A stretch of DNA of 64,000 nt from Ruegeria sp. HKCCSA071. GTDB lineage: Bacteria > Pseudomonadota > Alphaproteobacteria > Rhodobacterales > Rhodobacteraceae. Positions within the stretch are counted from its first letter, which is position 1. The number at the start of each line of letters is the position of its first letter. The notes beneath the pieces are model-generated. The model made no database searches, was not told where the DNA came from, and worked only from the letters and a program-made list of their open reading frames with translations. The position numbers and the translations under genes were made by a program. Below, piece by piece: positions 2,678 through 9,197 of this stretch. The stretch spans positions 1,116,001-1,180,000 of the forward strand of contig NZ_JAEDOX010000001.1 in assembly GCF_017872555.1 (NCBI RefSeq), in the 5' to 3' direction.

Positions 2678-4156
2678 CTACCGCCGTCTTATCCGCTCAC
2701 GATTTCGCTCCCGACGTTCGAAGTTGATCTGGTTATCGCGACCCAGCGCCCGGTAGAAGCCCTGGCCCTTGGACCAGTTCGGAAAATGGGCAAAGCTGTC
2801 GACCTGATCGTCGTTTCGCCCGCGCGGAAAGGACTGCAGTTCCCGTTTGAACGCCGCCAGCCAGGGTGCATCTGCAGGCAGATGCACCTTGCCCTCTTCG
2901 ACAGGACCGCACGCGGACTGGAAACGGGTTTCCTTGTCCTTGTCAGGTCTAATGCGTTCATAGCGCCGACGGTCATCACGAAACAACTCGTCCAGAAGCG
3001 GTTTGCCGGAGGCCGCATCTTCGATCAGAACGCGATCCGGATCCCAACGGCCGACAAGCTGCAGCGCCTTGGCTTTCAGGTCTGGGTAGTCCACCTGCCC
3101 GCGCCAGACGTCGAGAAGGTACCACGCATTTTCGCGGAACCCCCAGGTTGTACAGGCCGAGAAGTCGGACCGGGGATCCGCAGACATCCCCGTATCCCAG
3201 CTTTGAACAACCAGCTGGAACCATTGGCGATCTTCGACGGTCTCGTAGGTCCCGAACCATTCCCAGCGCAGCGGCGATCCGTCTGGCGCAACTGGGTTCT
3301 GCTGATACTGGCAATTGAACACAGCTGCGCCCATTTCGCGACGCTTGGTATCCAGCGTGTTCTGATCCAAACGAGACGGGCAAAGAAGATCACCCGGTTT
3401 GTGGTGCATGACCCTTCCAAACCCAAGAGGCACCGTTTCATGTTCTTCGGCGATGGCAGACAGATACAGGTGCCGATAGGTACCGCGTTCCAGCACGTAG
3501 CCCGGCGAATCCATCTCGGGCAACCGCTGTGCAACCATGACAACGCGCCCCTCGGCCGGGTTGTCAAAGCGCGACAGCAAGTTTCCCTCAATAAACTCCT
3601 GTGCCTTGGCCAGTTCAGCTTCGGAACCCGCATCACCCGCTTTCAGCGGATCATCGATGATGATGTAATCGGCACTATGGCCAGTGACAGAGCAGCCGAT
3701 GGAGACAGCCTTGCGACTGCCTCCCTTTGTGGTGCGGATTTCTTCTGAGGTGTTGCCCTTTTTGGCCAAGACCGTTTCAGGGAACATTTCCCGGTACCAG
3801 CGCGCGGACATGATCCGACGACAATCTTCGGAATGCTTGCGCGCCAGATCCAGCCCGTAGCTGGCAACAATGATTTTGGCGCTGGGGTTATGCCCCAGAA
3901 GATAAGCGACATATGCAACGGCCACGGTGACTGATTTCAGGCAACGTGGCGGGATGTTGATGATCAGCCGCTTGTTTTCGCCTCGGCGGACATTGTCCAA
4001 CTCATGGCACATGGCCCGCACATGCCAGGCCGGATCAAAGCCGCGGTCCGTCCCTTGATGCAGCGTGTCAAACACGCGCCACACAAAGGGAAAGAAATTG
4101 TCCCGGCAAACCTCGCGCGCGACCTGCCGGACCATTTTGGGATCAGGAGCCGACAT
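2678..4156 (-). CDS. Phage terminase large subunit
   Basis: The product has 492 residues. The ATG at 4156 is preferred because GAGG lies at proper spacing upstream; an adjacent ATG at 4159 is possible. The N-terminal ATPase shows a Walker A variant (NIPPRCLKS, the PPRxxKS form common in this family) and Walker B (YIIIDDPLKAGDA). The C-terminal RNase H-like nuclease shows its acidic positions in QSWDTG, LIEDAASGK and NDDQVDSFAH. Both the packaging motor and the nuclease therefore look intact. The start overlaps the end of the DUF5681 gene by 14 bases, so the two are translationally coupled. No portal or capsid gene follows, so any DNA it packages would need structural proteins from elsewhere. 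It could also be a domesticated remnant, though no frame damage is seen. Confidence 0.85.
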   Translation of the reverse strand: MSAPDPKMVRQVAREVCRDNFFPFVWRVFDTLHQGTDRGFDPAWHVRAMCHELDNVRRGENKRLIINIPPRCLKSVTVAVAYVAYLLGHNPSAKIIVASYGLDLARKHSEDCRRIMSARWYREMFPETVLAKKGNTSEEIRTTKGGSRKAVSIGCSVTGHSADYIIIDDPLKAGDAGSEAELAKAQEFIEGNLLSRFDNPAEGRVVMVAQRLPEMDSPGYVLERGTYRHLYLSAIAEEHETVPLGFGRVMHHKPGDLLCPSRLDQNTLDTKRREMGAAVFNCQYQQNPVAPDGSPLRWEWFGTYETVEDRQWFQLVVQSWDTGMSADPRSDFSACTTWGFRENAWYLLDVWRGQVDYPDLKAKALQLVGRWDPDRVLIEDAASGKPLLDELFRDDRRRYERIRPDKDKETRFQSACGPVEEGKVHLPADAPWLAAFKRELQSFPRGRNDDQVDSFAHFPNWSKGQGFYRALGRDNQINFERRERNRERIRRR

Positions 4157-4577
4157 CATTGGCCTCTTCATCTTCAGGACCGCCGTCACCATCCGGGTGA
4201 CTGGAAAAGAAATCCCGGAGGATTTCGTAGTCGACAGCGTCCGGCTCAACCGCACGGACGCTTTCTTGCGCGTCCATGTCACTTGTGTTGAACAGATCTG
4301 CGTCCAGCTTCAGCAGCGCCATCAACAATTTCGTGTCGCCATTCAACGCGCCAGCCGTGAGCCGCTTGGCAATTGCCTCAGCCTTGGAAATCCGGATTTC
4401 GTGGCTGCCTTCGCGAACTGTAATCTTTGTTTCCAGTTCGCGTTTCAAGCTGGCGTTCACGCCTTTAGCACCTTTCGGCCGCCCTTTCGGATTGCCGGAT
4501 CGGCCTTCTTTGAACCGGGTTGCTTTGGGCGGCTTGCCGTAGCCCACCTCATACTCTTCTTTCGTATCGTCGGACAT
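4143..4577 (-). CDS. DUF5681 family protein, possible terminase partner
   Basis: The product has 144 residues. Its ATG at 4577 has a strong AGGAGG ribosome binding site seven bases upstream. The N-terminal half has the basic Gly/Pro-rich signature of the DUF5681 family (RFKEGRSGNPKGRPKGAKG), followed by a helical segment; the C terminus is acidic (DGDGGPEDEEAND). The gene overlaps the methyltransferase gene upstream by 29 bases and the terminase gene downstream by 14. A small basic DNA-binding-like protein directly before a large terminase is in the usual position of a small terminase subunit. That role is inference from position only; the family has no established function that I know of. 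Confidence 0.7.
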   Translation of the reverse strand: MSDDTKEEYEVGYGKPPKATRFKEGRSGNPKGRPKGAKGVNASLKRELETKITVREGSHEIRISKAEAIAKRLTAGALNGDTKLLMALLKLDADLFNTSDMDAQESVRAVEPDAVDYEILRDFFSSHPDGDGGPEDEEANDVGS

Positions 4578-5964
4578 GACCCACCTCCTGTTCTGAAGTG
4601 GTGTCGTTGGCCGCAGAACGCGCATCGAACGCCTGGCCTGTCACCGAATGCACGGCGCGCTCGCCAGTCATTTCCTGCCAACGGCGGATGGCGACATCCA
4701 CATAGGCCGGATCGAGCTCAATGAGCCGCGCCTGGCGCCCGGTTTTCTCAGCTGCCAGCAACTTCGCGCCGGACCCTCCAAAGACGTCCAGCACGACATC
4801 GCCGCGATGGCTCACATCCATGATGGCATCTGCCACCAAAGCTGTCGGCTTCACCGTGGGATGATCTGAGAGATCCGCCTCGCGCCCTGCCCCAAAGCTG
4901 TTCACACCGGCGTAATCCCAGACGTTGGTCCGGTTGCGCCCGTGTTTGCCCAGCTCGACGTTGTTGATGTGCGGCGCACCAGGCTTCTTGAAAACGCAAA
5001 TCAGCTCATGCTTTGAGCGATAAAGGCTGCCCATGCCTCCGTTCGTCTTGTTCCAGACGCAGAGATTGATGAGGTCCAATCCAGCTGCTTTGCCCGCCGT
5101 AATCAGTTCTTCGATATGACGCCAGTCCATGCAGATCATCGCGATGCCTCCGTTCGGCAGGCAGTCAAACAACTGCGTGATCGCGCCTGAAAGAAAGCCG
5201 CGGAACTCGCTATCCGTCATTTCTCCCGACGCCATGGCAAACTCGCGGTGTTCGGCGCTATTGCCGGACCGCACATGCCCATTGACAGGCACGTTGTAAG
5301 GCGGATCGGTGAAGACTATCTGCGGGGTCTCGCCTTCCAGCAAGGTGTCGTAGCTCTGGGCTTGAAGGGCGTCCCCGCAGAAAATGCGATGATCTCCGAG
5401 AACCCAGAGGTCGCCCGGCTGCGCAATTGCGGGTGCCGCAAGGTTCGGCGTCTCAACAGTTTCCGCTACAGATACCGTCACCTCACCGACGCTGTCGATA
5501 ATGATGTCGATCTCCGGTGTTTCGAACCCTGTGATGTCCAGATCAAAGTTCAACTCGCCATCAAGGTTGAGGTCCATCAGCTCGGCAAATTCGATCTGCA
5601 ACGCCGCTTCATTCCAGTCCGACAATTCCGCCAGCTTATTGTCCGCAATGCGCAGAGCGCGCACTTCCGCTTCTGACAAATGATCCGCGACAACAGTCGG
5701 TACGGAATTCAACCCCAGGGCCTTAGCGGCCTCATAGCGGCCATGACCCGCGATGATTGTGCCCGAACCATCCAACAGGATCGGAGTGACAAAGCCAAAC
5801 TGGGCCACCGATGCTTTCAGTTTGTCGACATTCTTGGCCGCGTGCACGCGGTTGTTGTTGGCGTAGGGCTTGATCTGGCTGATCTGGGATTGGATAACTT
5901 TTTCGGCCATCCAGATAGGCGTATTGGACGCCCGAACGTCGCTGTGTGTGTTTTTGGCAGGCAT
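4549..5964 (-). CDS. ParB-like domain fused to beta-class DNA adenine/cytosine-N4 methyltransferase
   Basis: The product has 471 residues. The ATG at 5964 follows an AGGAGG site; the open frame runs further upstream but without family sequence. Residues about 20-130 form a ParB/Srx nuclease-like domain, with GTIIAGHGRYEAAKALG and RALRIADNKL as its typical boxes. The methyltransferase follows. The catalytic motif TDPPYN precedes the AdoMet motif DVFGGSG, which is the beta order, and SDHPTVKP lies between. Such fusions are common in alphaproteobacterial prophages and islands. It would methylate a specific site on DNA; specificity cannot be read from sequence. As first gene of the left operon it could mark element DNA for protection or for recognition by the terminase below it (inference). 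Confidence 0.85.
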   Translation of the reverse strand: MPAKNTHSDVRASNTPIWMAEKVIQSQISQIKPYANNNRVHAAKNVDKLKASVAQFGFVTPILLDGSGTIIAGHGRYEAAKALGLNSVPTVVADHLSEAEVRALRIADNKLAELSDWNEAALQIEFAELMDLNLDGELNFDLDITGFETPEIDIIIDSVGEVTVSVAETVETPNLAAPAIAQPGDLWVLGDHRIFCGDALQAQSYDTLLEGETPQIVFTDPPYNVPVNGHVRSGNSAEHREFAMASGEMTDSEFRGFLSGAITQLFDCLPNGGIAMICMDWRHIEELITAGKAAGLDLINLCVWNKTNGGMGSLYRSKHELICVFKKPGAPHINNVELGKHGRNRTNVWDYAGVNSFGAGREADLSDHPTVKPTALVADAIMDVSHRGDVVLDVFGGSGAKLLAAEKTGRQARLIELDPAYVDVAIRRWQEMTGERAVHSVTGQAFDARSAANDTTSEQEVGHVRRYERRV

Positions 5965-6412
5965 AACCGCCTCCTTTTGCGTGACGCCGCGCGGACGTCG
6001 AGATGGAGGGATCGCGCTGGAAAATCGGAGAGAGCACAAATCGCAACTCCCCGGACCAATCGATCCGAGACGTTGCTCCTTTGAATGCTCTCTGCGGAAA
6101 CCTGTGTTTCCAATGAGTGCTGCCTGCGGGAGCAGTTTCCCGCCCTGATAGTCCGGGCGATTAGGTCGAATGTAGGTGCCATCATTAGGAGACGCACCCC
6201 CCAAAACCAAAAGTAACCGATTAAGATTGTTGACGAATAATCGGGGGTACGGCAGCAACGCCCTGCAAAACTCACCCCTCTTGGGATTGCCCCAGAAAGA
6301 GCTGGACTGTTGCTGTGAACCACGCATCACTGAACCCACGCCCGAGCCATTCGGACGCTCCTCGGTACCAGGGTTTGGCGTTCCGCCAACCCCAGATCAG
6401 AGGAGACAATAC
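5965..6412. promoter_or_regulatory. Divergent control region of the cassette
   Basis: 448 bases separate the two divergent operons, so both sets of promoters and operators must lie here. A TTGACG hexamer at 6230-6235 is a possible -35 for the rightward operon, but no good -10 follows at 17 bases. The region holds GC-rich patches around 6120-6160. No gene with a ribosome binding site was seen. Confidence 0.5.
6371..6393. promoter_or_regulatory. Inverted repeat just upstream of the DUF3489 ribosome binding site
   Basis: The arms GGGTTTGGCG (6371-6380) and CGCCAACCCC (6384-6393) pair at nine of ten positions around a 3-base loop. The repeat ends about eight bases before the GAGGAG ribosome binding site at 6400-6405. 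It could be an operator or an RNA hairpin controlling translation of the recombinase operon; DUF3489, which looks like a helix-turn-helix protein, is an obvious candidate to bind it. This is inference. Confidence 0.4.
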
Positions 6413-6643
6413 ATGTCCAAATCCAAACAAACCAAAATTGACAAGGTGCAACACTTGTTGCGCCGCCCGAGCGGCGCCAGCATTGAGGCGCTCTGCAAAG
6501 CAACGGGGTGGCAACCTCATTCGGTCCGAGCTGCATTGAGTGGGCTGCGGAAGACAGCCGCAACGATTGAACGGCGCAAATCCGACAAGCCACATGGTTT
6601 TTCCACATATCACCTCACAGCAAACAAGGGCGGCGAGTCATGA
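6413..6643 (+). CDS. DUF3489 small DNA-binding-like protein
   Basis: The product has 76 residues, with its ATG eight bases after GAGGAGA. It matches the DUF3489 pattern: a basic start (SKSKQTKIDKVQHLL), then a helix-turn-helix-like stretch (GASIEALCKATGWQPHSVRA) and a short C-terminal strand region. The fold suggests DNA binding. The gene opens an operon in which each following gene starts inside the previous stop (ATGA at 6640-6643), and DUF3489-DUF2924-recombinase is a recurrent trio in alphaproteobacterial genomes as I recall. A transcriptional regulator or recombination directionality factor are the two reasonable guesses. Confidence 0.75.
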   Translation: MSKSKQTKIDKVQHLLRRPSGASIEALCKATGWQPHSVRAALSGLRKTAATIERRKSDKPHGFSTYHLTANKGGES

Positions 6644-7056
6644 CGAAGACGAGCGATGTCGCCGATCTGGCCGCCATGGGTCGAACGGATCTGGTCACGC
6701 TTTGGCAGCAGCTGTTTGATCAGCCTGCCCCCGCCATGCTCAGCCAACCCTTTCTGCGCCGCTTTATCGCCTTTGAGATGCAGTCCCGCCGTCATGGCAG
6801 GCTACCCCGCCAGGTCAAAGCCACGCTGGAAAAGGGCTCTGGGAAGAAACCCCGGCCTACATGCCCTGCCCTAAAACCCGGCGGGCGCCTGCTACGCGAG
6901 TGGAATAGTGTGACCCATGTAGTCGACGTTACAGAAGACGGCTTCACTTGGAACGGTCGGTCCTATCGCTCACTCTCGGCCATCGCCCGAGAGATTACCG
7001 GCGCGCATTGGTCAGGGCCGCGTTTCTTTGGGCTCACCGGCAAGGCGGCCAAATGA
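6640..7056 (+). CDS. DUF2924 protein, recombinase-associated
   Basis: The product has 138 residues. Its start overlaps the DUF3489 stop by four bases and its stop overlaps the recombinase start by four, so all three are translationally coupled. Residues 1-70 are helical with an FLRRFIAFEMQSRRHG segment. The second half holds the DUF2924 signature RLLREWNSVTHVVDVTEDGFTWNGRSYRSLSAIA (residues about 83-117), a small beta/helix unit that resembles a DNA-binding accessory domain. Its function is not established. The tight coupling to a serine recombinase suggests an accessory or directionality factor. Confidence 0.75.
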   Translation: MTKTSDVADLAAMGRTDLVTLWQQLFDQPAPAMLSQPFLRRFIAFEMQSRRHGRLPRQVKATLEKGSGKKPRPTCPALKPGGRLLREWNSVTHVVDVTEDGFTWNGRSYRSLSAIAREITGAHWSGPRFFGLTGKAAK

Positions 7057-8732
7057 GCCCGCGCCGTAAAATCCGATGCGCCATCTACACGCGCAAGTCC
7101 TCAGAAGATGGTCTGGATCAGGACTTCAATTCGCTGGATGCGCAATATGAGGCCTGCGCGGCCTATGTCGCAAGCCAGCGACATGAAGGCTGGACCCTGT
7201 TGTCCGGGCGCTACGATGACGGTGGCCTGTCGGGCGGCACCCTAGAGCGACCCGCCCTTCAGCGCCTTCTTGAAGAGATCGATGCCGGGCGTATTGACAT
7301 GGTGGTGGTCTACAAGATTGACCGGCTGACCCGGTCGCTTGCCGACTTCTCTAAGCTGGTCGACCGGCTGGAACAGGCAAACTGTTCTTTTGTGTCCGTC
7401 ACGCAGGCCTTCAATACCTCATCTTCCATGGGCCGGTTAACGCTGAATGTGCTGTTGTCCTTTGCTCAGTTTGAACGGGAAGTCACCGCCGAACGTATTC
7501 GCGACAAGATTGCAGCGTCGAAGAAGAAGGGGCTTTGGATGGGTGGCAACCTGCCTCTGGGCTATGATCGCCACCCCGATCCGAAGGCAAGAACGCTGGT
7601 GGTGAATGAAGAGGAGGCCAGAACGGTCCGGCATCTCTTTGGGCTTTATGACGAGCTTGGTTGCCTGCGCAAAGTAGAAGAACGGGCAACGGCAGAAGAC
7701 CTGCGGTCAAAACGGGTTGTTCGGACAGATGGCAGTGTGAAGGGGGATTGTCCGCTGTCACGGGGTCAAATCTATTACCTGCTGCGCAATCCGGTCTATC
7801 TCGGAAAAATCCGCCACAAGGATAAGATCTGGGACGGACAACATCCGGCGATCATCGATCAGGACATCTGGGACCGGGTGCAGGAAAAAATGCGACAGGC
7901 CTCCAACCGCTCGCGGGCACGCGGCGACTCCGATGCGCGCCAACACTCCACTGACCCCGGGGCCTGGCTCACCGGTCTGCTGTATGACGAAACTGGTGAT
8001 CGGTTGACGCCGACCCACACCACGCGCAAAGGCCGACGGTTGCGCTACTATATCTCCAATCGACTGATCTCAGGCGGCAAGGATATCTCTGGCTGGCGAC
8101 TGCCCGGCCCAGCGCTGGAAAACGCGGTCATTGATGTCATCGTCAGACATTTGCAAGACGCCGCCGCGGCGCACCAAGTACTGGCGCAGCCGGAGGCCGG
8201 GTCAGCCGAGGCAGTTCAGACTTCAGTTGCGGATTTAGTAACCCGGCTTCTAGGCCATGGCTGTCAGATCGGCGCTGCTCTTCTGGCCAAAGGCAAACTT
8301 GCACGAGGACAGATCGACCTCGAATTTAACCCCAAAACTCTGGCAAGCGCAGTTGGCATTGCTGCGGACCAACTGCACCCGGATCTCACCCACGTCACCG
8401 CATCTTTCGATCTGCGCCGCCGCGGCGTCGAGGCCAAGGTCATCGCCGGAGACATGGCACCCCAACCTGATCCCCACCTCCGGTCCATGCTGATCCGCGC
8501 CCATGGCTGGGCCCGTGATCTGAAGGCCGGAGTTCAACTGATGGAGATTGCCCGCCGCGAAAGCGTCCCTGACGCCTTCATCCGCACCCGTGCTCAGCTC
8601 GCCTTTCTCTCACCAAAGATTCAAACGGCGATTCTCGACGGGAGCCAGCCGCCCGAACTCACACTCAAGCGTCTGGTCAGCGTGACCCACCCACTTGAAT
8701 GGTCCGAACAGGAACGCCTGTTCGGCTTCTGA
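7053..8732 (+). CDS. Large serine recombinase
   Basis: The product has 559 residues. The ATG at 7053 overlaps the DUF2924 stop. The N-terminal resolvase/invertase domain (about residues 8-160) shows the catalytic YTRKSS motif with Ser16 as probable nucleophile, VYKIDRLTRS as the conserved arginine region, and the long E helix (RLTLNVLLSFAQFEREVTAERI). A recombinase domain follows (about 180-300; NPVYLGKIRHKDKIWDG), then a zinc-ribbon-like region that appears to lack the usual four Cys, and a long C-terminal part. Length and domain order fit phage integrase-type serine recombinases that join attP and attB. The repeat-rich tract 20-200 bases downstream is in the place where an att end would be expected. 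Confidence 0.9.
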   Translation: MSPRRKIRCAIYTRKSSEDGLDQDFNSLDAQYEACAAYVASQRHEGWTLLSGRYDDGGLSGGTLERPALQRLLEEIDAGRIDMVVVYKIDRLTRSLADFSKLVDRLEQANCSFVSVTQAFNTSSSMGRLTLNVLLSFAQFEREVTAERIRDKIAASKKKGLWMGGNLPLGYDRHPDPKARTLVVNEEEARTVRHLFGLYDELGCLRKVEERATAEDLRSKRVVRTDGSVKGDCPLSRGQIYYLLRNPVYLGKIRHKDKIWDGQHPAIIDQDIWDRVQEKMRQASNRSRARGDSDARQHSTDPGAWLTGLLYDETGDRLTPTHTTRKGRRLRYYISNRLISGGKDISGWRLPGPALENAVIDVIVRHLQDAAAAHQVLAQPEAGSAEAVQTSVADLVTRLLGHGCQIGAALLAKGKLARGQIDLEFNPKTLASAVGIAADQLHPDLTHVTASFDLRRRGVEAKVIAGDMAPQPDPHLRSMLIRAHGWARDLKAGVQLMEIARRESVPDAFIRTRAQLAFLSPKIQTAILDGSQPPELTLKRLVSVTHPLEWSEQERLFGF

Positions 8733-9107
8733 CATCTCCAGCTCCTGCGTCCCTGATACAGACTTCGCCCTCCCTGATCCGGCGGAACAATTCCCTGTTC
8801 GCACGAGGAAATTCCCTGTTCCACCTTTTAGGGAATTTGCAACATAAACCTCTGAGAAACATACAGTTCTGATAGAAGAAATGACGGAAGTCAGTCCCGG
8901 TTTGCGAATATTCCCTGTAAATTGCAGGTTATCAGGGAAATCCAGCCCAAAGCGACCCCGCTAAAATGCGACACTGAGACTCGCGCCTGAATTGTCCTCT
9001 GAATGTACGGTTTGCTTCGTCTCTGATTGAAAGCGCATGCGCCAACGCGCGGGAATTGCGTAACAATTCCGGATCAGAAAATACAACTGAAGTGAGACAG
9101 GTATGAG
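8733..9107. other. Gene-free stretch between the recombinase and tRNA-Ser
   Basis: The first 210 bases hold the CAGGGAA/TTCCCTG repeat tract described separately. The remaining part up to the tRNA 3' end shows no gene with a start signal. An open frame crossing the tRNA on the minus strand is spurious. Confidence 0.6.
8750..8941. repeat. Tract of TTCCCTG/CAGGGAA direct and inverted repeats
   Basis: Copies of a TCCCTG core occur at 8750, 8771, 8792, 8813 and 8912 on the plus strand, and an inverted CAGGGAAA at 8933-8940. Two are nearly identical (AATTCCCTGTTC at 8789 and 8810). AAATTCCCT (8809-8817) pairs perfectly with AGGGAATTT (8830-8838) across 12 bases, and TTCCCTG (8911-8917) pairs with CAGGGAA (8933-8939) across 15. 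Spacing is irregular, so this is not CRISPR. The position directly after the recombinase suggests a recombinase or accessory-protein binding site, an att end, or a structured RNA. Confidence 0.7.
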
Positions 9108-9197
9108 TGGCGGGGAGACAGGGATTCGAACCCTGGGGACGCTCTCACGCCCAACGGTTTTCAAGACCGCCGCATTCGACCACTCTGCCACCTCCCC
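9108..9197 (-). tRNA. tRNA-Ser(UGA)
   Basis: The minus strand folds as a class II tRNA of 90 bases including encoded CCA. The acceptor stem GGGGAGG pairs with TCTCCCC (one G-U), the anticodon loop is CTTGAAA with anticodon TGA, there is a long variable arm (TGGGCGTGAGAGCGTCCCC), and the T arm contains GGTTCGAATCC. The discriminator is G. It lies about 170 bases beyond the repeat tract. tRNA genes are common integration sites, but mainly for tyrosine integrases, and no duplicated 3' fragment was seen. Confidence 0.95.

Follow-up and report, generated by a model that had tools for sequence, protein, structure and literature searches.

A discrete mobile unit with its own large terminase at the 3′ end of tRNA-Ser in Ruegeria, and a probable satellite-like way of life

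Genes, ends and insertion site of the unit

Six genes and their noncoding ends occupy the region at 2.6-9.1 kb of a 64,000-nucleotide stretch of DNA from Ruegeria sp. HKCCSA071, which is called the window here. This region is one discrete mobile unit and not a remnant. Its features, and the tRNA gene against which it lies, are the following.

2586-2677, no strand: left end of the unit (estimated to fall within 2586-2609), then the spacer that runs up to the TerL stop codon; homology to the unit of genome G180 stops here
2678-4156, minus: terminase large subunit (TerL); phrog_38, E 1.2e-100; PF17289, E 5.9e-13
4143-4577, minus: DUF5681 protein, small and basic, with a GNPKGRPKG motif; PF18932, E 2.5e-21
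4549-5964, minus: ParB-N domain fused to an N6/N4 DNA methyltransferase; PF02195 and PF01555; phrog_498, E 4.9e-122
5965-6412, no strand: divergent intergenic region, where promoters are expected from the gene map
6413-6643, plus: DUF3489 small protein; PF11994, E 2.2e-19
6640-7056, plus: DUF2924 protein; PF11149, E 1.9e-40
7053-8732, plus: large serine recombinase (integrase); PF00239, E 2.5e-38; PF07508, E 3.8e-12; phrog_95 integrase, E 1.6e-94
8733-9107, no strand: noncoding right end of 375 bp, conserved across genera
9108-9197, minus: host tRNA-Ser(TGA), by ARAGORN and the Rfam tRNA model

The six genes that a first-pass annotation of this DNA had named are all present where it placed them, intact and with strong family matches. 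The gene overlaps that it had seen in each operon are likewise real, at 4143/4156 and 4549/4577 on the minus strand and at 6640/6643 and 7053/7056 on the plus strand. TerL, which that annotation had called apparently intact, retains every ATPase motif (PPRCLKS, IIIDDP, AQRLPE) and every RNase H-like nuclease motif (SWDTG, IEDAASG, DDQVD), and thus has the Walker A/B and nuclease signature of its family (PF17289, phrog_38). The recombinase combines a catalytic domain bearing Ser17 with a Recombinase domain (PF00239 and PF07508), as large serine recombinases do, and its motifs are of the resolvase type (YTRKSSED, which includes Ser17, IDRLTR and ERIRDK). The methyltransferase matches only generic methyltransferase models in PADLOC, and a recognisable replication gene is absent among the unit genes. 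The DUF5681 gene sits just upstream of TerL in almost every unit, a position that makes its product a candidate small subunit of the terminase; a comparison with the small terminase annotated in phage CRP-901 gave no convincing similarity. Neither the predicted structure of DUF5681 (low confidence) nor that of DUF2924 (moderate confidence) has a match in the PDB.

All six genes are under purifying selection in Ruegeria, with dN/dS well below 1. Comparisons of window-type TerLs with the window copy give values of 0.10-0.15, and those of the remaining genes are mostly 0.07-0.31; a single recombinase value of 0.34 derives from almost no divergence. This selection, together with the recurrence of the block in other genera, excludes a chance origin.

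In Ruegeria the unit spans from a fixed left end, GGGCTCAAAGC, to the 3′ (CCA) end of tRNA-Ser(TGA), which is the insertion site and faces the recombinase gene. GG[GA]CTC forms the first bases of eight sister units, about 140 bp past the TerL stop codon and beside unrelated left flanks; the left end in the window is less certain than those of its sisters because the sequence has diverged there. The extent of 2678-8941 originally proposed for the unit does not hold, as its right boundary is at 9107 against the tRNA and its left boundary near 2586-2609. Units of eight species measure 6,564, 6,568, 6,568, 6,569, 6,571, 6,577, 6,581 and 6,597 bp, and this length is constant whether TerL is of the window's type or another. 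In three relatives (G159, G181 and G182) the tRNA is present without the right end and the alignment ends at 9106-9108, so that the empty-site alleles expected of an integrating element do exist. By hand counts over 54 Ruegeria genomes, in which the noncoding stretch right up to the tRNA was scored, the right end stands at tRNA-Ser in about 30 and is absent in about 24. Elsewhere it meets the 3′ end of tRNA-Ser(TGA), tRNA-Ser(GGA) or tRNA-Arg(ACG) in other genera, and tRNA-Ser(GCT) holds the equivalent position in two more loci (L202, L223). A tRNA-Met 3′-half fragment is found in the left end of the unit in one sub-lineage (L060, L063, L157 and L158), perhaps the relic of a target switch; the right end of L063 lies at tRNA-Ser despite this fragment.

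The noncoding right end contains TCCCTG iterons (at most four, with a spacing of about 21 bp) that close in an inverted AGGGAA, with a second dyad, TTCCCTG...CAGGGAA, then a ACTGAGAC...GCGTCTC dyad and finally GAG/TGGCGG at the tRNA. Its function could be that of an attP arm, an origin of replication or a site for packaging. An Rfam search found the tRNA alone above threshold.

The flank of tRNA-Ser acts as a hotspot where gene content differs between species. A minus-strand gene at 796-2538, immediately left of the unit and outside it, encodes a protein with a caspase domain (Peptidase C14), a weak peptidoglycan-binding match at its C-terminus and a weak match to a PADLOC caspase model, and positions 1-247 of the window hold the end of a urease cluster that continues leftward (L002). 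The urease cluster was considered as cargo of the unit and rejected: among the loci examined it lies near tRNA-Ser only in the window's genome and, inverted, in G201, and it is elsewhere in other Ruegeria.

Transfer, exchange and distribution

Judged by comparative genomics, the unit is mobile. Ruegeria arenilitoris HKCCA0515 (G150) and Ruegeria sp. HKCCD7303 (G187) share 99.80% identity over 6,420 bp of the unit but 80.3% in the nearby host gene dacC, a clear sign of recent horizontal transfer; the right-end noncoding stretch is 100% identical between the two. Units also recombine, since the window and G150 share 99.5% identity in the recombinase gene but 88.4% in the TerL gene. In G162, G173 and one of the two units of G196, a distant TerL (37-39% identical) and DUF5681 (43-53%) are found instead, and the methyltransferase, DUF2924 and recombinase are still about 86-92% identical. 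Swaps of TerL and DUF5681 with the rest constant would be expected if packaging follows different helpers. Two different units stand head to tail and directly abutting on a contig from an isolate genome in IMG/VR (L149/L153), and tandem units have attP-like junctions between neighbours. A plasmid search returned fragments only, mostly of the methyltransferase region.

The first-pass view of a self-contained integrating unit without virion genes is upheld by the joint travel of the six genes and by the empty tRNA sites. In a survey of full-length TerLs in the genome collection that are at least 58% identical to the window's, 27 of 33 have all six genes nearby, and the two modules are not independent in these close relatives. 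The other six comprise two with five genes, three at contig ends and one without the set. More broadly, Rhodobacterales, Sphingomonadales and Rhizobiales all have carriers of the gene set, with distant members in Sphingomonas, Sphingopyxis, Novosphingobium, Bradyrhizobium, Methylobacterium, Rhizobium and others. Among these distant members the modules are arranged divergently, co-directionally or convergently, and some showed no recombinase trio in the vicinity. At the IMG/VR loci examined, with TerL at about 36% identity or more, DUF5681 is present in 33 of 36 and the recombinase side in 27 of 36; a further locus in this identity range that lacks DUF5681 (L302) has a portal and looks like a phage. 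The methyltransferase nearly always accompanies TerL in unit loci. Near some units (L062, L191 and L250) there is also a shorter, second type of DUF2924-recombinase pair, about 40-48% identical and without a TerL module.

One relative is deposited as a bacteriophage sequence. MT839917.1 (L165), a 5,365-bp contig from a human faecal sample from Mexico that is marked UNVERIFIED, contains five of the six unit genes (those for the recombinase, DUF2924, the methyltransferase, DUF5681 and TerL), with order and divergent arrangement unchanged, and nothing more; identity is low (33-47%). It is the top-scoring TerL match in the phage collection and by far the best match there to the ParB-methyltransferase. 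The contig probably comes from a study of DNase-treated virus-like particles (PMC8361208), a link that we infer for the accession. It is the only hint of packaging, and a suggestive one.

Terminase lineage, virion genes and known satellites

Pfam and PHROG matches reveal no portal or capsid gene among the six, no portal was recognised next to unit TerLs, and the neighbours of the unit in Ruegeria are ordinary bacterial genes. In distant relatives, the ten genes after TerL gave zero matches to portal or capsid families and one match to a tail-protein family with lysin activity. As a control, a portal gene follows TerL in 10 of 10 phage TerLs that are at most 37% identical to the window's and are without DUF5681 or methyltransferase neighbours. 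The window's own genome has no match to PF04860 (Phage_portal), the one portal family searched, and to that extent no resident helper was found in it. Single PF04860 portal genes, possibly derived from gene transfer agents (GTAs) or prophages, occur in five of nine other unit-bearing Ruegeria (5/10 with the window's genome counted).

In a FastTree phylogeny, one branch (support 0.795) fully splits 55 unit TerLs from 17 phage TerLs. The closest full-length phage TerL by identity (34.9%) is that of Roseobacter phage CRP-901, which differs from the unit in that a head-to-tail connector gene directly follows TerL and neither a ParB-methyltransferase nor a recombinase lies beside it in the stretch shown. 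In its genomic features, the unit resembles a phage satellite. It is a discrete element with site-specific integration, as seen in its fixed ends, the tRNA 3′ end, unit-free sites and tandem junctions; it carries TerL as a packaging gene, with no portal or capsid recognised; and the TerL split and dN/dS values mark it as a separate lineage rather than a degraded prophage.

Several known systems invite comparison. SaPIs bring their own small terminase and use the large one of their helper, and cfPICIs also encode capsid and portal. The unit resembles PICI/SaPI and cfPICI elements as a chromosomal island with integrase and packaging genes, but it has a large terminase without portal or capsid, and a serine rather than a tyrosine recombinase; the portal and capsid that characterise capsid-forming PICIs are not among its six genes. 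VEIMEs and tycheposons are small elements of marine bacteria that are thought to travel in phage particles, tycheposons being found at tRNA genes. By general description rather than by gene content, they are comparable to the unit as small integrative marine elements. Both are named as marine virion-borne integrative elements in work on the phage-inducible chromosomal minimalist islands (PICMIs) of Vibrionaceae, which are 6.1 kb long and are packaged as 8-copy concatemers in helper capsids (PMC10803314). The genes of PICMIs include an integrase, alpA and a primase, integration is beside fis, and the PICMI paper nowhere uses the word terminase (PMC10803314). A length of about 6 kb, six genes, the lack of capsid genes, site-specific integration and marine hosts are common to PICMIs and the unit. 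Unlike PICMIs, the unit combines TerL, DUF5681 and a methyltransferase with a large serine recombinase, and its site is a tRNA 3′ end; in place of int, alpA and primase beside fis are other gene families at tRNA-Ser. On gene content, therefore, the unit is not a PICMI, SaPI or cfPICI. Charybdis elements, of about 4.6 kb, are also small and marine and are found in viromes, but they are set apart by their content, which is free of virus, transposon and plasmid hallmark genes, and by their putative archaeal hosts (PMC12324425).

Full-text literature searches, with subscription papers and outside preprints beyond their scope, returned no description of the unit, of DUF2924, DUF3489 or DUF5681, or of terminase-bearing satellites. 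The earlier remark that the DUF3489/DUF2924/recombinase trio has no described mechanism agrees with these searches, and the unit family is apparently undescribed so far.

Proposed mode of life and competing readings

It seems fairly likely that the unit belongs to a satellite-like family of elements of about 6.57 kb that have their own terminase, integrate by a serine recombinase and use foreign capsids; that the unit is packaged in such capsids is probable, as we infer. On phage infection the unit would excise and the circle would be replicated into concatemers. These would be cleaved by DUF5681 and TerL at a site carried on the unit, the two proteins would engage the portal of a procapsid made by another phage, and particles of that phage would be filled with unit DNA. 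One copy measures 6.57 kb, and it would take several to fill a typical head, as in the case of PICMIs (PMC10803314). Marking or protection of this DNA may be the task of the ParB-methyltransferase, and after injection the recombinase would insert the unit at the tRNA of a new host. A broader proposal, to which we incline by a small degree, is that of a widespread class of satellites with their own large terminase and a small DNA-binding partner that take the whole virion from other phages; such a mobile motor and integrase would compete with helper genomes for procapsids, and the motor would be exchanged between units to match different portals.

The same genes might instead make up a self-mobile integrative element in which TerL, DUF5681 and the ParB-methyltransferase have roles in DNA processing, in defence or in modification (in the manner of a restriction-modification system, for instance), and which is carried along by transduction, GTAs or conjugation. 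Such an element would need none of the helper, capsid or portal that were not found, including the PF04860 portal missing from the window's genome, and the methyltransferase nearly always sits beside a nuclease-bearing protein. Against this stand the complete set of ATPase and nuclease motifs in a TerL of the large-terminase family, the lack of any PADLOC defence model that matches it, and the swapping of TerL and DUF5681 independently of the methyltransferase, which would be odd for a restriction-modification pair; this reading is unlikely but retains some weight. Carriage by the gene transfer agents of Rhodobacterales (RcGTA-like particles) deserves very little credence. GTA particles hold about 4 kb of random DNA, which is less than the 6.57 kb of the unit. 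The window's genome has no PF04860 match and the gene set extends to Sphingomonadales and Rhizobiales, although the Ruegeria hosts are Rhodobacterales and the single PF04860 portals in five of ten unit-bearing Ruegeria are perhaps GTA-derived.

A prophage that decayed at the tRNA hotspot, with integration and packaging genes as survivors, would account for the phage-family matches of TerL and the recombinase and for the damaged copies in some Ruegeria (G163, G179 and G191). It is already contradicted, and very improbable, given the constant length and ends in eight species, the purifying selection, the recent transfer of the whole unit, the occurrence of one gene set in several orders, and a TerL clade apart from phage TerLs. 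The unit might also be the right-end integration module of much larger islands with variable bacterial cargo to the left, where species-specific metabolic genes do occur and where the window has the caspase-like gene and the urease cluster. The fixed left end beside unrelated flanks and the abutting tandem units (L149) show that it is the unit that moves; larger islands are improbable.

If units are indeed packaged in foreign capsids, as the satellite-like reading proposes, they would invert the plan of SaPIs, in that the element would bring the motor and borrow the shell. Lone terminase genes in alphaproteobacterial genomes that are called prophage remnants would be partly explained, DUF5681, DUF3489 and DUF2924 would gain a role, and a family of large serine recombinases with the CCA end of tRNA genes as its target would be added. 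Its fixed size and exact ends make the unit directly testable in culturable Ruegeria.

Integration and excision would both be catalysed by the large serine recombinase, perhaps assisted by DUF3489, DUF2924 and the iteron region. Judging from the junctions, the crossover would take place at the GG inside the TGG that encodes CCA, between a predicted attP of ...GAGT-GG-GCTC... and an attB of ...T-GG-CGGGGAGAC..., and the circular junction is predicted to read ...GAGT-GG-GCTCAAAGC...; with GG as the crossover dinucleotide, the tRNA would stay intact. A candidate left att repeat at tandem junctions, TGGCGG-TGCTGTCAGAC..., proved to be the terminus of an insertion sequence, with a transposase that is IS6-like by eye, and was dropped as an att site. 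An insertion-sequence end (GGTGCTGTCAGAC.AATTCGAACCAGTCTCAG, with a transposase that looks IS6-like) lies at an identical point beside unit right ends in several species, at loci L120, L134, L137, L141 and L143, and a similar case is seen at L065. The tip of the insertion-sequence end resembles a tRNA T-arm, and unit junctions are possibly its targets.
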